In this document: piece by piece, positions 2,452 to 19,902 of the stretch
Position numbering within the stretch: position 1 is the stretch's first letter
How the letters are laid out: each line of letters opens with the position of its first letter
Assembly (NCBI GenBank): GCA_019112785.1
Contig: DXIQ01000049.1
Span: 1 to 43,927, forward strand
Origin: Candidatus Blautia stercorigallinarum
GTDB taxonomy: Bacteria; Bacillota; Clostridia; Lachnospirales; Lachnospiraceae
DNA length: 43,927 nucleotides
Direction of reading: 5' to 3'
Translations under genes and position numbers: made by a program
Notes under the pieces: generated by a model
Seen by the model: only the letters and a program-made list of their open reading frames with translations
What the model was told of the DNA's origin: nothing
The model's database searches: none

Positions 2452-3856
2452 ATCAGAAAAGAAAATTGATGCGAAGCTGATCTTTTCCATCATTGCCGCA
2501 GGGATCATGTCCTTCTCCGGCGTAGTAGTGGAAACTGCCATGAATGTTACCTTCCCTACTCTGATGGAAGAATTCGGCATCGGAACTTCTACCGTGCAGT
2601 GGATCACTACCGGATACCTTCTTATTCTGGCTATGATCATACCTGCATCTTCTTATTTGAAAAAACGCTTTACCTTAAAGAAATTATTTGTCACTGCCAT
2701 CTGCCTGTTCCTGATCGGAACCATAATGGCTGCTGTTACCCCGGTATTTTCCCTCCTGCTTCTGGGCCGTCTGATCCAGGGTGTGGGAACAGGTATCGCC
2801 CTGCCTCTGATGTTTAATATCGTACTGGAACAGGTTCCTGCCGAAAAACTGGGACTGATGATGGGAATTGCCTCCCTGATCACAGCCATGGCTCCTGCTG
2901 TAGGACCTTCCGTTGGAGGTATGTTAGTAAGCAATTTCGGATGGAGAATGATCTTCATCTCTCTGATCCCATTGCTCCTGCTCTCCTTTTTCCTGGGAGT
3001 TTTTTCTATCCGTCAGGTAACAGAAACAGAAAAAATTTCTTTCCAGTGGCTGGACTACATATTTCTGGCTGCAGGCTTCGCCTGCTTTATCTTTGCCACC
3101 AGTACAGCCTCAGGCGCAGGATGGATCAGCGTCCAGGTACTGGGACTTCTGGCAGCCAGCATTATCTGTATCGCGATATTCTGTCTGAAATGTAAAAAAA
3201 GCGAAACACCCCTGATCGATATCCGGGTATTTTGCTGCATTCCTTTCAGCCTCAGTGTACTGGTCCTTGTTTTCATTCAGTTTATCTGTCTGGGACTTGG
3301 ATTCCTGATCCCCAACTATGCCCAGCTTGTACTTGGTGAAGAAGCCTTCCTGGCAGGGTGCCTTCTCCTTCCCGGCTGTATCATCGGCGCTATCCTCTCT
3401 CCTATAAGCGGCAGGATCCTGGACCGTTTCGGAGCAAAGAAGCCTATCCTTTCCGGTAACTTCTGTATTATCCTGGCAACGGTATGCTTCAGTATCTTTG
3501 CTTTACGGCTGAACATTGGAACCTTTATCGTATTCTATATATTCTTTGCCTTCGGTCAGGGCTTCTCTGTAGGAAACACCATGACCAACGGCTTAAAACA
3601 GCTGACTCCGGAGTTAAATCCTGACGGAAACGCAGTGATCAATACCCTTCAGCAGCTGGCAGGCGCCATTGGCACCTCCATTATCACCACCATAGTAGCG
3701 GCCTCCCAGGCAAAGCTTCCTGACGATCTGGCAACAGCCACTGCCCAGGGTACTCAGTATTCCTTCTATCTTCTGGCAGTGCTAGCTGTAGCTGTGATCT
3801 GCTGCTCTTTAGGCGTCTTTGCACTTACCGGAAAAAAGAAGAAGCTGTCGCATTAA
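2444..3856 (+). CDS. MFS drug:H+ antiporter, DHA2 (14-TM, EmrB/QacA) family
   Basis: The 470-residue product consists almost wholly of hydrophobic segments, about fourteen, consistent with the DHA2 family. It carries a motif A-like loop between TM2 and TM3 (LKKRFTLKKLFV), the motif B-like GRLIQGVGTGIALPL and the antiporter motif C GPSVGGML in TM5. Related pumps export lipophilic drugs or bile-acid-like compounds in exchange for protons across the cytoplasmic membrane. It overlaps marR by 8 nt and has no promoter of its own, so export is probably induced when the MarR protein binds its ligand. The substrate is unknown. No clear terminator follows before the convergent neighbour. Confidence 0.9.
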   Translation: MNESEKKIDAKLIFSIIAAGIMSFSGVVVETAMNVTFPTLMEEFGIGTSTVQWITTGYLLILAMIIPASSYLKKRFTLKKLFVTAICLFLIGTIMAAVTPVFSLLLLGRLIQGVGTGIALPLMFNIVLEQVPAEKLGLMMGIASLITAMAPAVGPSVGGMLVSNFGWRMIFISLIPLLLLSFFLGVFSIRQVTETEKISFQWLDYIFLAAGFACFIFATSTASGAGWISVQVLGLLAASIICIAIFCLKCKKSETPLIDIRVFCCIPFSLSVLVLVFIQFICLGLGFLIPNYAQLVLGEEAFLAGCLLLPGCIIGAILSPISGRILDRFGAKKPILSGNFCIILATVCFSIFALRLNIGTFIVFYIFFAFGQGFSVGNTMTNGLKQLTPELNPDGNAVINTLQQLAGAIGTSIITTIVAASQAKLPDDLATATAQGTQYSFYLLAVLAVAVICCSLGVFALTGKKKKLSH

Positions 3857-12206: not shown

Positions 12207-12385
12207 TCAAAATATGTTTAAATATACTTAAACGCATCGAGAAATTGAAGCCCTTGCGGATGCTTCTTACTGTTTCAATGTGTATGCTTTGACGATTGCA
12301 GGCAATACGCTACTCACAAGTTCTTGTACACTCCACAGTCGTAAATTCCCGAAATAGCCTTCGGTACACACTTACGTTTGCTTGA
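12207..12385 (-). ncRNA. Candidate omega RNA (reRNA) region downstream of tnpB
   Basis: In TnpB systems the guide RNA is transcribed from the 3' end of tnpB through the right end of the element. This 179-nt segment follows the tnpB stop on the same strand, has no open frame of note, and includes the hairpin GAAGC...GCTTC (12266-12247) close to the presumed end. A perfect-looking AT palindrome GTTTAAATATACTTAAAC lies at 12216-12233. The guide would be the flank beyond the end, near the start of the membrane-protein gene. Assignment rests on family knowledge and position. Confidence 0.4.
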
Positions 12386-13545
12386 TTATGCAACCTCGTA
12401 AGTTACAGCATCTCTAAGATTAAGACTTGAATTAAAATCCCTATCTTCCATGTAGCCACATGAACAGCGATATATTCTGTCGGAAAGTTTTAAGTCTTTC
12501 TTGATACTTCCACAACAATGGCACATCTTAGAAGATGGATACCATCTATTTACAATTCTTAATCCAATACCATTATCATCACATTTTGCTTTTAACTTTG
12601 TTCTAAATTCATAAAATTTCTGTGACGCAACAGCTTTCGACAGATGTCTGTTCTTCATCATGCCTGATACATTCAAATCTTCAATTGCTATATAAGACGG
12701 TTTGGTTTTCACTATCTCTGCTATAGTCTTATTGATGTAATCAGTACGGATGCTGTCTATCTTATGATAAAGTCTCTGTACTTTCAGCTTTTGTTTTTGT
12801 ATATTCTTCTGAGTGGACTCTCCTTTCTTTAAATTCTCATACTTGCGTGAAAGACGTCTTTGTTCTCTACGCAGTTGTTTTTCCAATCTCCTTACTCTTA
12901 CCGACTTATTGATGTTCTTATAGGTTTTACCATTTGAAACAATCGCAAAATCTTTTAGACCTAAGTCTATTCCAATGCCCTCATTGTTATTCTTAGTAAT
13001 TTGAATATTGGGAATTTCAACAAGGACAGATACGTAATATCTTCCTGCTTTAATGGATACCGTACCACTTTTAATTTTCCATCCATCCTTAGTCGTTGGG
13101 ATATAGCCTTTTTCTTTCAGGCGTACCCATCCCAAAGCCGGAATCTTAATTCTATGTCTTTCACAATAACAATCCTTTGGGTTATTTTTAACGAAATACA
13201 TTCTTACATCAGACTTGCCTTTCTTTTTGAACTTCGGAAAAGCGCTTTGATGTTTGAAAAACCTTATGAATGCTGTACATCCATTTTCAATAGATTTCTT
13301 TACAGCTTTTGAATACACTTCTTTTATCCATGCTTTATCAGGATGATTGGGGATATATTCACGATTAAGCCATACGCTGAAACTCTTACCAGTCATAAAT
13401 TTCTTACCTTCATCATACAATGCTTTGTTATGACTAAGATAGAAATTATAAACGTATCTACAAGTACCAATCGTCTTATCAATCTTGATTTTTGCTCGAC
13501 TGTCGGATTGATTTCCGTCTTGAAGTTCTTTAGCAATTTCCTCAT
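12386..13545 (-). pseudogene. tnpB: TnpB RNA-guided nuclease, frameshifted near the N-terminus
   Basis: The main frame has the RuvC triad: Asp in GIDLGLKD, Glu in IAIEDLN and Asp in EDRDFNSSLN. The zinc ribbon CHCCG...CSCGY is also present. The N-terminus is split over two frames: from the ATG at 13545 one frame encodes MRKLLKNFKTEINPTVEQK, a typical TnpB start, and the other continues with IKIDKTIGTCRYVYNFYLSHNK. One extra A in the A5 run (T5 at 13489-13493 on the plus strand) would join them into a 386-residue protein of normal size. So the gene is broken by a 1-nt deletion, or is rescued by slippage on the A run, or contains a sequencing error. Without the N-terminus, binding to the guide RNA would be impaired. 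Confidence 0.85.
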
Positions 13546-15249: not shown

Positions 15250-16194
15250 CTAACTTCTGTGAAGCTGACGGTTCAGGTCGATCCGGTTCAGATCATGGAT
15301 ATCCTCTGTCCGGTTGCTTCCGATCAGACCGATCAGCATATAATATCCCGTGGCAGGATCCTGGGGATAATCTTTGATCAAAGTAAACTCTTCAATCTTT
15401 CCCGTACTGGATATATGCATTCTGGGTCCCAGACATTCCATAACATGATCTCCGATCTGTACATGATTCTCGTCATAGTAAGAAACCGGAAGGTCTTTTT
15501 TTACCGCTTCACGTACCTGCTCTTCAAGCCAGTGCAGATCCACCGAAGGCTTTTCTTCAAAAAGCAGCACAAAACCATGGCGCACATCTGAACGGGGACC
15601 GTCCTGGGCATATCCTTCTCCCATAAAATAAACACACAGATCCTCCAGGGTGTGGGCCATCTTTCTGTATGCCACAGATTTATGCACGATCCTGGCAATA
15701 TTCTCCGGTAAAGGTCCGAACATATTTGGTCTGGTGATAATGATCTCCTCACCGATCCCTACCAGGAGATCTGCGTTTCTTTTCAGAAAGGGATGGATCA
15801 GTTCAAAATGTTCCACGATCACCATTTTACCATATCCGGCAGCCTCCAGGATCGCTTCTGCCAGCACATGCATCTGGGTAAAAGCAGATTCAAAACGGAT
15901 ATCCAGATGATAGGTATGGGGAGAAAAAGGATCTGACAGATCTTCATGAAGCAGAGGCAGGGGGCGGATATTTACCCCCTCATCATCATTGGTCAGATCC
16001 AGACCCGGAAACATTCCTTTGATCAGCAGGCTTTTTCCTGCTCCCGCATCACCGATGATCCCGATGATATGATCAAAAGGACTGAGATACATCTGGCTCA
16101 GCTGCATTCCCAGATCTGCCATACGGCGGTTTCCTCTGGGGGCAAAATAAAAACTGTACAGGTTGCTGTCCTGCATTTGTCTTGAATATGCCAT
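15250..16194 (-). CDS. P-loop protein of unknown function in the methylaspartate operon
   Basis: The 314-residue protein has a Walker A motif GDAGAGKS at residues 48-55 in IIGIIGDAGAGKSLLIKGMFPG, and then no clear partner motifs that I can place. A central part (about residues 105-170) has HVLAEAILEAAGYGKMVIVEHFELIHPFL and HKSVAYRKMAHTLEDL, resembling an AlaRS second-additional-domain-like region. My recollection is that related proteins carry that label in databases, but this is not a functional proof. It lies between mal and fumA, so a role as chaperone, reactivator or regulator of the pathway enzymes is possible. AAAGGA precedes the ATG. Confidence 0.7.
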   Translation of the reverse strand: MAYSRQMQDSNLYSFYFAPRGNRRMADLGMQLSQMYLSPFDHIIGIIGDAGAGKSLLIKGMFPGLDLTNDDEGVNIRPLPLLHEDLSDPFSPHTYHLDIRFESAFTQMHVLAEAILEAAGYGKMVIVEHFELIHPFLKRNADLLVGIGEEIIITRPNMFGPLPENIARIVHKSVAYRKMAHTLEDLCVYFMGEGYAQDGPRSDVRHGFVLLFEEKPSVDLHWLEEQVREAVKKDLPVSYYDENHVQIGDHVMECLGPRMHISSTGKIEEFTLIKDYPQDPATGYYMLIGLIGSNRTEDIHDLNRIDLNRQLHRS

Positions 16195-16318: not shown

Positions 16319-17569
16319 TTACCGGCATTTTCCTGCTTTTCTCAGAGCAAGTATCCTCTCCATCTCATTGTAAACAATCATGTAGCCTTCGTCAACACCC
16401 ATGCCCGGCTTTGCCAGGATCTGGTCCGGCTTTGTAGCCATAGCACAGTTTACGCATACCTGGGCGGAACGGTCTGTCTCATTGCAGGTTCCTCCCTGAT
16501 AAGCGCCGAATCCCTTTTCCTTGCAGTAAAGAACAGCTTCCACAATATTATTGATTCCTCCCAGGTCAGGAGTCTTGATCTGGGCCATATGCCCTGCCTT
16601 ATTGTCTGCAAAATATTTTACATCTTCCAGAGTATTGCACCACTCATCGGCAACCAGTTCTACATGAATACCTCTTCTGTCTACTTCTTCTCTCAGACCT
16701 TTCAGACAGAGCATCTGTTTTTCTCTTTCCTCTGCATCCATGGGGCCTTCGATCCTTAAATGGAAAGGCTTGGCCGCTTCCTCCAGCTCTGCCAGATAAT
16801 CCGCCATAGCCGGGTAATTGTCTACGCCGAAGATTGCCCCGATAGTTCCATATACATCAATATGGAAAATCGGCATATAGCTCTCGTCATGACGAAGTTT
16901 CAGCACACGGTCCCTAAGCCAGCCCACATAATCTTTCAGGATCTCTCCATGCTCTCCCAGCTTGGTCTGCACATTATTGATCAGGGCATGAGGCATAACA
17001 GCCGCGCCTTTTAAGATCATCTTATCCGCATTATCATAGCGGCTGTCTCCGGACTGGGTGAAGATAGGAATAGGCTCTTCTGAAACTGTTGTGCCGTACT
17101 CATCTGCCACCACTTCACACATAAGACGCTTTGTGGATTTTGCCACAGCATCCAGGATCGCCTGGCTCACGCCATAGCGGATAGCTGTATGGAGCCTCTT
17201 ACCGTCTACCTGGATATTCTCCAGCATTTCACACAGGCCCTTAAAGCTGTCCGCTTCCCGGCCCACTAGCTCCGGTTTAATATATTTTTCAATAATAGGA
17301 ATAAAATCTTCTGCCAGAAACAGCGGGTCGCGGCCCCCTGCTCCTGAATACTGGACAGCCGCACAGTCACCCCAGGCAATCTGTCCGTCTTCCAGGATCA
17401 GCATAACAGAAATGGCTTCTCCGGCCTGCCTTACAGACTTAAATCCGGGAGTCACCGTTTCTCCAAAATAAGCCGCCCCGTCAGATACGGCACCTTTTTT
17501 AATAGCTCTCTGATCGTCAAAGAAAAATCCGGTTCTGGCTTTAGAACACACAAGATCTACTATTTTCAT
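16319..17569 (-). CDS. mal: Methylaspartate ammonia-lyase
   Basis: The 416-residue enzyme of the enolase superfamily converts (2S,3S)-3-methylaspartate to mesaconate and ammonia. It resembles the Clostridium tetanomorphum enzyme from its first residues (MKIVDLVC...FFFDDQRAIKKGA). The Mg2+ ligands are Asp238 (HIDVYG), Glu274 (IEGPMD) and Asp308 (VADEW). The catalytic base is Lys332 in QIKTPDLGG, and His194 lies in PHALINNV. The ATG at 17569 follows AAGGAG with good spacing; the frame is open 37 codons further upstream, but that part lies in the structured leader and is unlike the family. The 884-nt gap before it separates it from glmE and may control it. Confidence 0.97.
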   Translation of the reverse strand: MKIVDLVCSKARTGFFFDDQRAIKKGAVSDGAAYFGETVTPGFKSVRQAGEAISVMLILEDGQIAWGDCAAVQYSGAGGRDPLFLAEDFIPIIEKYIKPELVGREADSFKGLCEMLENIQVDGKRLHTAIRYGVSQAILDAVAKSTKRLMCEVVADEYGTTVSEEPIPIFTQSGDSRYDNADKMILKGAAVMPHALINNVQTKLGEHGEILKDYVGWLRDRVLKLRHDESYMPIFHIDVYGTIGAIFGVDNYPAMADYLAELEEAAKPFHLRIEGPMDAEEREKQMLCLKGLREEVDRRGIHVELVADEWCNTLEDVKYFADNKAGHMAQIKTPDLGGINNIVEAVLYCKEKGFGAYQGGTCNETDRSAQVCVNCAMATKPDQILAKPGMGVDEGYMIVYNEMERILALRKAGKCR

Positions 17570-17608
17570 TTTTTTCTCCTTTTTTGGGGAGCCGGAAGGG
17601 GATTTGGA

Positions 17609-17874
17609 GGGGAATGAGTGAGCAGTCCCTCGGAAAAAGGTTGGAAGCCTTCGAAGACGCCAGGGCCTTTTCTTGCTCAAAACCGTTTTCCATTCGCAGA
17701 AAAGACCCTGGTGTCTTCTTCAGCGGTTCTCAGTGCTTAAAGAGGGACTGGGATTCAGGTGTGCTTCCCATGGCTCCTCAGGCCTCCAACTAGGTTCCGG
17801 CGGCTCCGCAAAAGATTGCCGCCTGCCCATCCTGCCGGTGCTTTCCGGCTCCGGTAAGTTACAGTTGATTAAAT
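17609..17874 (-). ncRNA. Candidate structured RNA element, copy 1 (mal-proximal)
   Basis: On the transcribed strand this copy can form three helices. A 9-bp helix pairs CAGTCCCTC (17750-17742) with GAGGGACTG (17631-17623). Within it, a 21-position hairpin pairs 17718-17698 with 17673-17653 (one mismatch) around a loop containing AAAACGGTTTT. Upstream, GGCGGC (17823-17818) pairs with GCCGCC (17804-17799). Sequence conserved with copy 2 includes GGCGGCAATCTTTTG, TGAGGAGC, CCTGAATCCCAGT and AAGCACT. It ends about 40 nt before the mal start. I recognise no known riboswitch or ribozyme consensus. Confidence 0.6.
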
Positions 17875-17978
17875 TTACGATATTTAAATGGATATTGTTC
17901 AAATTTTTCAGTTTTTTAATTGTGCTCTGGCGCTTTATGCGCTGCCTGTTTCGCTTTTACAAAATGTTTTGGAGAGAG

Positions 17979-18247
17979 GGAAAATAAATGTTCAGTTCCT
18001 CTGAAAGATATCGTAAGCCTCCGAAGACACCAGGGTCTTTTCTTGCTCAAAACCGTTTTTAATTCTCAGAAAAGACCCTGATGTCTTCTCCTGCTTTTCC
18101 AAGTGCTTGAAAAGGAACTGGGATTCAGGTACTTTTCTCAAGCTCCTCAGATCTCCAAAAGCGGCTCCAGCAGCTTCTCAAAAGATTGCCGCCTACCCCA
18201 CCCAACCAAAACTTATTCAGCTCTGGTTAAGCTACAGTTGATTAAAT
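17979..18247 (-). ncRNA. Candidate structured RNA element, copy 2 (glmE-proximal)
   Basis: This copy differs from copy 1 at many positions but keeps the same helices. The outer helix is CAGTTCCTT (18120-18112) with GAGGAACTG (18001-17993): one C-G pair of copy 1 is U-A here and another is U-G. The long hairpin pairs 18088-18068 with 18043-18023 at all 21 positions, counting one G-U. The third helix is GGCGGC (18193-18188) with GCTGCT (18174-18169), where two G-C pairs become G-U. Such changes support an RNA that functions as a fold. Orientation and offset (370 nt) match copy 1, so the two form a tandem pair. Confidence 0.6.
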
Positions 18248-18323
18248 CTGCACTCCTGCAGATCTGAAGCCGCAATTTCTTCCTGTTTGACTCACACCGG
18301 AGCAAAACCTATATCCCAGCCCC

Positions 18324-18394
18324 GGGGGGCCTGGTGGTGGAGATCAGGCGAATTTTAAAACGCTTTTGAGCCTGAACCCACCGTCTGGCACCCC
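18324..18394 (-). other. Third structured domain downstream of glmE
   Basis: GCCTGA...CCACC-type pairing joins 18336-18349 with 18370-18382 (GGTGG and TCAGGC arms). An outer GC-rich helix of 7 of 8 pairs joins 18324-18331 with 18387-18394. There is no U tract, so it is not a standard terminator. It could protect the 3' end of the upstream hut-cit-glm message or be part of a larger RNA with the tandem elements. Confidence 0.45.
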
Positions 18395-18453
18395 AGGGCT
18401 GAACACAGCACTTCCAGCCGTAAGTCAGTCCCCAGGAAACTGCCCCCTCAGAC

Positions 18454-19902
18454 TCACTTCGGCTTACCTACCAGCCTTCCTTTGCTGATAGCATACACAT
18501 CATCAATAACCATCTGGAAGGAGGCTTTTCTCTTTTCCATTTTCGCTCTGTGCTCGATCTTATTTCTGTTATAATTGATCAGTTCTTTTGGCAGCGGCAC
18601 ATGAGCAGGATTCAGATACCGCACTGCGCCTTCAAAGTCACGGGCAGGAAGCATCTTTCCATAATTGTATTTGCTTGGGGCAAATGGAATGTCGATGACT
18701 CCAGCCTTTACTGCACGGATGGCTCCAAGGGCCAGATCCCCTTTGCCCAGTTCAAAACTCTTGTCTACAATCGCTCTGGTCTCTTCTTTGATAATAGCTT
18801 TCTCCAGCTCCAGAGCAGAGCTTTTCAGCTCCTGGTCTGCCAGCAGAGAAATTGCCTGTTTTGTACAGCGAAGTCCCTGGGCGTTGGCCTCCATGGTAGG
18901 CACGCCAATAGCCTCGTGAGGTGTTTTTACAATAACCTTTGTGGCTTTTGCCAGAGCTGCCACAGAACTTCCCCAGGAAATTACTGCGAAGGCTTTTGCC
19001 TCGTCCTGGGGGAATCCGCCCATCCACTGATGAAGAACAGTAGTCACTGTCACATCTTCATAGCCGTACTGTTCCAGATATTCTTCTGTCAGTTCTTCCA
19101 GAACACGGAGTGCTGCTACATCCTGTACCAGATTTCCGCACTGTCCGTATCCCACGGTAATGTTTTTTACCCCCTGCTCTGCTGCCAGCATGGCCTCTAT
19201 GATAGCCACCGCATTAGACATCGACGGGGGAACCAGAGTTCCCGTAAGAGGCCCGTAAGGCTCCCGGTTAATGGATACTCCTGCCTCTTCATAGATCCCG
19301 GTAAGACGGTCTACGTACTGCCAGTCATAGATCGTCCTTTCCAGGGGAACGTCTTTGGCATAAGGGATATTATAGGAGATCCCCCCGCCTTCATAGCTGG
19401 TAAATCCTCCTGCATAACAGATCTCTGTTAAAAGCCGGGCGTCCGGAGTGCCGTGGCGGACCTGTACGGGAATATCCAGATTTTCAATGATCTGACGGCA
19501 GCCGTAGACTCCATGGTTTACCGCCGGGAAACCATTGAGCATAGACTTCCTGGTATGTATGGACTCTTTGATCCCGTTTTCCGCTTCTTCATAGCGGTTC
19601 TGCCTGGTATAAGAATCAATTGTAGTAGGAAGCAGATCTGCTTCCCCTTTATCCTGGAGATACTGGAGCAGCTTAATATGCTCATCGATGAGAGCCACTC
19701 CGGCTCTTGGCTGTATCAGGGTCTTCCGTTCTTTTTTCGCCGCAGCCAGTTTTCTTGAAAAACTTTTTGATTCTGGCATACTTTTGTGATACTCAATAGA
19801 TTCGTCAAAATCTACATCTTTGCCCGTAGGCCATTGTCCCAGAATTTCTTTTCGGATTTCGTAAAATTCGTCATCCGACAGCTTCTTATTCATTATGTCC
19901 AT
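18454..19902 (-). CDS. glmE: Glutamate mutase epsilon (catalytic) subunit
   Basis: The 482-residue protein is the large subunit of coenzyme B12-dependent glutamate mutase, which rearranges L-glutamate to (2S,3S)-3-methylaspartate. The three arginines that grip the substrate carboxylates in the Clostridium cochlearium enzyme (Arg66, Arg100, Arg149) fall at exactly these numbers when the ATG at 19902 is used, which supports this start. Further family segments are [29 protein letters not shown] and [15 protein letters not shown]. It overlaps glmL by 17 nt, and AAGGAG lies inside that gene. Adenosylcobalamin is required, but no B12 synthesis or uptake gene lies in the window. Confidence 0.97.

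Follow-up and report, generated by a model that had tools for sequence, protein, structure and literature searches.

Palindromic hairpin repeats of a mobile-type family, apparently domesticated between glmE and mal in Blautia

The bcr1-bcr3 repeats of the Bacillus cereus group are described, in the part of the source available, as short, intergenic, MITE-like elements that often lie in untranslated regions or operon gaps (PMC3446304). REP and BIME palindromes of the GTAG and CGTC families are, according to the available text, extragenic, have stems of 6-13 bp and form opposite-orientation dimers in many families (PMC3733652). For the malE-malF intergenic structure of Escherichia coli, the accessible portion of the source describes an operon-gap RNA that sets the relative mRNA levels of the flanking genes (PMC5927463). 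The riboswitch families of Rfam 15 represent a further point of comparison.

The hairpins analysed here are located between glmE and mal of Blautia. As far as the available description goes, bcr1-bcr3 are a precedent for MITE-like repeats in transcribed operon gaps; likened to them by description, the present element differs in that within the genus it was found at a single operon, and in that its loop is fixed while the stems vary freely. Compared to REP and BIME elements as the available text presents them, the stems are longer (at least 21 bp), copies of the Lachnospiraceae MAG ABMPRH_301_1 feature 9-13-bp target duplications and inverted ends, and no Y1 transposase was found in the genome of the window. 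By eye, ABMPRH_301_1-type copies have GACG (the reverse complement of CGTC) at one foot, opposite a TGG foot; no GTAG/CGTC tag was seen by eye at the hairpin foot of the genus copies. The likeness to malE-malF, within what that source describes, concerns the proposed action only: no sequence relation is claimed. With riboswitches our element shares a structured leader before a metabolic gene, but it has no match at gathering score among the Rfam 15 families. An earlier description was not found in the literature searched by topic and by exact loop and end strings, where coverage of subscription papers is thin, so one possibly exists.

The window, i.e. the whole analysed stretch of 43,927 nucleotides, is one contig of the 3.3-Mb draft genome of Candidatus Blautia stercorigallinarum (G000). 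On its minus strand the genes are ordered hutU, hutI, ftcD, a cyclohydrolase-like gene, a citE-like gene, citF, a B12-binding gene, glmL and glmE, followed by a gap of 887 nt, mal, an ORF without family and two fumarase-type genes. By position, the B12-binding gene is glmS. We take the gene set to fit histidine fermentation through glutamate and methylaspartate. The ORF between mal and the fumarase-type genes (314 aa, 15250-16194, minus strand) matched no family in Pfam or NCBIfam; G018 (Candidatus Blautia stercoripullorum) and G006 share its first 30 residues without a difference. The only Rfam match of the window, RAGATH-18 (68.8 bits, 12267-12339, minus strand), lies just downstream of an IS605-type TnpB (OrfB) gene (12386-13420, minus strand), the position expected for a guide RNA of the adjoining TnpB, which it probably is.

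In the glmE-mal gap, an earlier note had described a tandem pair of ~265-nt copies with an offset of 370 nt, read on the transcribed minus strand. The repeat search confirmed both copies: 17613-17760 matches 17983-18130 over 148 nt (82%, spacing 370), with further blocks at 17793-17828/18163-18198 (83%, spacing 370) and 17855-17874/18228-18247 (95%, spacing 373). The site was also right, since the neighbouring genes were identified by Pfam and the same place is occupied in 8 species. As a tandem pair, however, the arrangement was incompletely described: the unit is larger, and a third copy in the opposite orientation had been missed (Table 1). The two copies described before (R, long type) have a hairpin of about 130 nt and the opposite copy (F, short type) one of about 90 nt. 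A fuzzy loop search found a common tip GCTCAAAACCGTTTTCAATTCGC, with variants, and GGGAT beside the foot in both types, and the conserved loop comprises ~23 nt. Covariance-model matches cover 17645-17727 on the mal-proximal copy, 18015-18098 on the distal R copy and 18309-18407 on the F copy. Scanning of 17400-18600 for promoter and terminator consensus sequences yielded one candidate of each, both on the plus strand and not above the shuffled expectation.

Table 1 Features of the glmE-mal gap and its flanking genes in the window
Feature	Position	Strand	Basis or remarks
glmE, upstream gene	18454-19902	-	Pfam PF06368
Third copy (F: short type, opposite orientation), close to glmE stop	18306-18406	-	Loop 18348-18371
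Second (distal) R copy	17979-18247	-	Arms 18023-18043 / 18068-18088, loop 18045-18067
mal leader domain: mal-proximal R (long-type) copy and closing stem	17570-17874	-	Alignment and consensus fold, 7 species
P1 closing stem, 5' strand GGAGCCGGAA	17843-17852	-	Alignment and consensus fold
P2, 5' strand GGATGGG	17826-17832	-	Partner within 17750-17759 (CCTGAATCCC); nearly invariant, 7 species
P3 hairpin GGCGGC/GCCGCC	17799-17823	-	Folding
Long hairpin P4 of mal-proximal copy, with flanks	17618-17761	-	Repeat search, covariance model
P4 of mal-proximal copy, conserved loop and stem	Loop 17675-17697; stem between 17653-17673 and 17698-17718	-	
P1 closing stem, 3' strand TTCCGGCTCC	17588-17597	-	8 nt before GGAG of mal ribosome-binding site
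GGAG of mal ribosome-binding site	17576-17579	-	Sequence
mal (methylaspartate ammonia-lyase), downstream gene	16319-17569	-	Pfam PF07476, PF05034

When folded in minus-strand sense, the mal-proximal copy reached -108 kcal/mol (z -4.2) and the distal R copy -98.6 kcal/mol (z -4.4), and for neither was any of 200 dinucleotide shuffles as good. The 5' halves alone (148 and 149 nt) were unexceptional (z -0.5 and -1.1), which places the folding excess with the 3' half, where the 21-bp hairpin lies. That differences between copies preserve pairing, as had been proposed, was borne out by 10 long-type R copies from 7 species of the genus: 10 of 33 pairs are double-changed, a number reached by 2 of 500 shuffles, and the covariation score of 0.275 compares to 0.143 in shuffles (0 of 500 reach it) and at most 0.116 in slid alignments. 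The number of further pair types was not above shuffles (136/500). For 25 copies from outside the genus, 25 of 28 pairs are double-changed and the score is 0.650 (0.166 shuffled, at most 0.130 slid), figures raised by picking these rows by eye from 35 non-redundant ones; the 10 left out were three chance matches in unrelated bacteria (L243, L268, L279) and otherwise imperfect or similar copies. Covariation thus exceeds chance in both sets, in agreement with the conserved structure claimed before. Some copies without inverted ends even have stems of wholly different sequence, yet near or full pairing over about 26-30 bp.

A strand test compared G-U with A-C pairs. Outside the genus, forward reading gave 72 A-C versus 17 G-T (55 copies, 95% non-redundancy) and 26 versus 12 (32 copies, 85% non-redundancy), counts dominated by shared descent; the excess of A-C over G-T corresponds to G-U being commoner on the opposite strand. 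Within the operon, in mRNA sense, G-U stood against A-C at 5 to 14 in forward copies and 17 to 29 in reverse copies, and fold-chosen pairs of the leader stem pointed in the opposite direction (10 versus 4). The forward-copy alignment of the genus comprised 10 of 11 copies, two of them short at the left end, and excluded the incomplete left arms of G018 and G006. The conserved pairing may reflect selection on RNA or, perhaps, on DNA. In line with the earlier statement that no cobalamin, glycine, T-box, THF or glutamine consensus fits, Rfam 15 gave no match at gathering score in the glmE-mal region, and matches by E-value were almost all to microRNA or other eukaryotic-type models, far below gathering scores.

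Within the genus, mal is present in 19 of 20 genomes. In the 8 genomes that carry the element, the glmE-mal gap measures 392-1024 nt; in the remaining 11 its length is 25-136 nt. Allowing up to 3 mismatches, the loop was detected at 12 places in 6 of the 20 genomes, all inside this gap. Model R1, built from 25 copies of which none is from Blautia (18 from ABMPRH_301_1, 7 from other Lachnospiraceae), retrieved 21 copies from 8 of the 20 genomes (E 9.5e-9 to 0.0028), every one between glmE and mal, in addition to 4 weak matches elsewhere (E 0.02-0.09); 150 of 541-1791 candidates per genome were scored. Copy number in the 8 genomes is 1-5 per species, and the three copies found in the genome of the window share one site. 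As far as searched, the element is confined to glmE-mal within the genus, which suggests retention at this spot for shaping operon expression. In the gaps of G018 and G006 (L143, L145), forward hairpins have additional left arms that lack a right arm and are joined within the loop, as if they had arisen by template switching.

A different distribution was observed outside the genus. The loop-pattern scan of GTDB species genomes returned at least 116 stretches; among the matches listed, non-Blautia loci are mainly from ABMPRH_301_1, some from two further Lachnospiraceae MAGs and single ones from unrelated bacteria. The pattern occurs in 6 of 397 sampled family genomes, namely three of the genus, ABMPRH_301_1 (G199) and two with one match each. 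ABMPRH_301_1 contains it 115 times (60 + 55 by strand). Among 86 distinct copies read there, 52 are full-length, 143 bp, with inverted ends TAGGYAATTGCGAAA, and an exact 9-13-bp target duplication lies within 1 base of the ends in 29 of these 52, compared to 2 of 2652 mismatched flank pairs. Every full-length dispersed copy and every close pair read comes from this one genome. Where the flank sufficed (n = 67), 3 copies fell within an ORF and 1 on the border of one; the 63 intergenic copies lie between co-directional genes (21 and 20 by sense), divergent genes (17) and convergent genes (5). The dispersed ABMPRH_301_1 copies resemble a small non-autonomous transposon. At glmE-mal, neither a target duplication nor ABMPRH_301_1-type ends were seen by eye. 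The MITE alternative named in the earlier note, many unrelated sites with target duplications, hence describes ABMPRH_301_1 and does not describe the genome of the window. Dispersal, inverted ends and target duplications elsewhere, together with the outside-genus model finding all 21 genus copies, indicate a mobile hairpin family.

At E 0.001, R1 matched 7 of 397 family genomes, one of them falsely: the match in G226 (E 4e-9), a plain hairpin that lacks the loop, was rejected as a family member, demonstrating that R1 E-values favour any long hairpin and need to be read together with the loop. Weak DNA matches (L011-L013) were judged by eye to be chance. A phage origin was discarded as well, because the phage collection gave no match and the exact loop pattern was found on 0 viral contigs, as was a guide-RNA role: 15 variable stems compared with the loci read, a part of ABMPRH_301_1, gave nothing longer than 16 nt besides the copies themselves. 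As partner transposase, ABMPRH_301_1 offers one DDE_Tnp_1 gene that does not share the ends, and an end-pair scan of the loci read, a small part of that genome, revealed no clear transposase by eye. Two single loci of note are L235 of ABMPRH_301_1 (about 3250-3400), in which a foreign stretch sits inside the loop with both stem arms intact, and L175 (1518-1677, minus strand), where a Clostridiales-1 RNA (RF01699, 102 bits) directly adjoins a hairpin copy.

Copies also tend to face each other. The 18 neighbour pairs within 600 bp outside the genus, all from ABMPRH_301_1, comprise 16 convergent, 1 divergent and 1 tandem pair; 4 of the 16 are nearly abutting at 154-155 bp, and the convergent pairs may share descent. 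Seven wider pairs are convergent (4), tandem (2) or divergent (1). In 7 of the 8 element-bearing species of the genus, a forward copy lies near glmE and a reverse copy near mal, and G007 has a forward copy only. With this convergent order, forward then reverse, the two loops are mutually antisense. The predicted F-R loop duplex amounts to -19.8 to -31.2 kcal/mol in 7 species, compared to -6.6 kcal/mol (sd 2.2) when shuffled. Within-species duplexes (mean -25.7) are no better than between-species ones (-26.0), which gives no indication that the loops co-evolve.

Next to mal, P1 (GGAGCCGGA/UCCGGCUCC, shorter in G019, Blautia sp. An81) closes around the final copy in 7 species and ends 7-8 nt before GGAG. 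P2 and P3 are nearly invariant across these species; as P1-P3 seldom vary, they are conserved, yet unproven by covariation. Divergence of the leader is 7-35% (gaps left out), compared to 14-50% at four-fold sites of mal, and is the lower value in 21 of 21 species pairs; the closest case is G000-G001 (leader 0.298, four-fold sites 0.309 in mal and 0.306 in glmE). When the 34-nt end is folded alone, an exclusive CUCC/GGAG foldback of -4.6 to -5.9 kcal/mol is predicted in 6 of 7 species and is broken in G001. Speculatively, pairing of the CUCC of P1 with GGAG may act as a translational switch. In the mal tree (18 of the 19 genomes with mal), the 7 species with both F and R copies form one clade (100/99). 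G007 stands apart from it, beside G011, which has no element, a distribution that implies two or more changes. In its gap, G001 differs by 33% from G000 and by 7% from G017 (uncultured Blautia), while its flanking genes are closest to G000 (7-9% vs 13%), with a sharp switch at both gene borders. This looks like an exchange of the gap block between species, provided that G001, a draft in 330 contigs, is assembled correctly; such exchange weakens the argument from leader conservation.

The reading we favour, at about an even chance of being correct, is that the hairpins are a mobile (MITE-like) palindromic family which was kept and multiplied at glmE-mal as an intercistronic RNA structure. A ligand-binding riboswitch for mal translation, in which P1 frees the ribosome-binding site and CUCC otherwise pairs with GGAG, would explain why P1 ends beside that site in all 7 species with a reverse copy, why the exclusive foldback is found in 6 of them and why P2 and P3 hardly vary. 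It is nevertheless improbable, considering that the same gap holds extra copies, some of them antisense, that 11 of the 19 genomes with this gene pair do without the element, and that the foldback, broken in G001, consists of four pairs and is weak evidence. Both orientations in one gap and the even orientation elsewhere (21 and 20) speak against the element being, at its core, a ligand-sensing leader. An origin as the riboswitch-like element proposed in the earlier note is not supported for a family dispersed at other genes, with target duplications and in both orientations, in another Lachnospiraceae genome.

Less probable than the favoured reading, but the strongest of its competitors, is passive persistence of mobile repeats without host function that arrived at glmE-mal and were duplicated there. 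Mobility of the family elsewhere, the variable copy number, the broken left-arm duplications in G018 and G006 and the absence of the element from G011, the sister of G007, all suit such passengers. Against such passengers speak their retention by every one of the 7 species that form a supported clade, pairing kept by compensatory change and a leader that diverges less than four-fold sites in every species pair, although block borrowing weakens the last point. Unlikely, though ahead of the riboswitch, is a DNA-level site, i.e. a cruciform or single-strand hairpin serving as substrate of a recombinase, transposase or DNA-binding protein, as in attC or REP. Stems that are wholly different between some copies but pair near perfectly, with few G-U pairs, are consistent with it, as are the apparent whole-gap exchange between species and the convergent pairs, which recall the REP dimers described in the available text of PMC3733652. 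No such enzyme could be linked to the element: Y1 (RAYT-type) transposase genes are present in G019 and ABMPRH_301_1, but were not found in the window's genome or in G012. A DNA-level site would also leave P1-P3 beside the mal ribosome-binding site unexplained.

Taken together, the family apparently consists of mobile palindromic (MITE/REP-like) hairpins that were domesticated at glmE-mal. On the glm-to-mal message, they would act as intercistronic RNA structure: the forward hairpin or hairpins would close off the glm segment at its 3' end, and the reverse ones, together with P1-P3, would make up the 5' leader of mal next to the ribosome-binding site of that gene. The output of mal, and of the genes downstream, relative to glmSLE could then be set by cleavage, by blocking of exonucleases or by pairing between loops. 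In this way the hairpins would determine the relative stability or translation of the glm and mal messages, uncoupling their expression. The domesticated copies may have a regulatory role, even that of a switch. A bolder proposal, which we regard as rather doubtful, is a new class of mobile two-part RNA module made of convergent hairpins with antisense loops (about 23 nt) and stems that are free in sequence as long as they pair; one lineage would have recruited a convergent pair into the glmE-mal gap, where it would serve as an intercistronic switch, and the block would move between species as a cassette.

The combination of a fixed loop on replaceable, well-paired stems with strong convergent pairing is unusual and points to a recognising factor. 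The glmE-mal gap of Blautia is a natural example in which a mobile palindromic repeat has been retained at a single operon. Some sister species carry it and others do not, and comparison of these species allows direct testing of the step from a jumping repeat to gene control.
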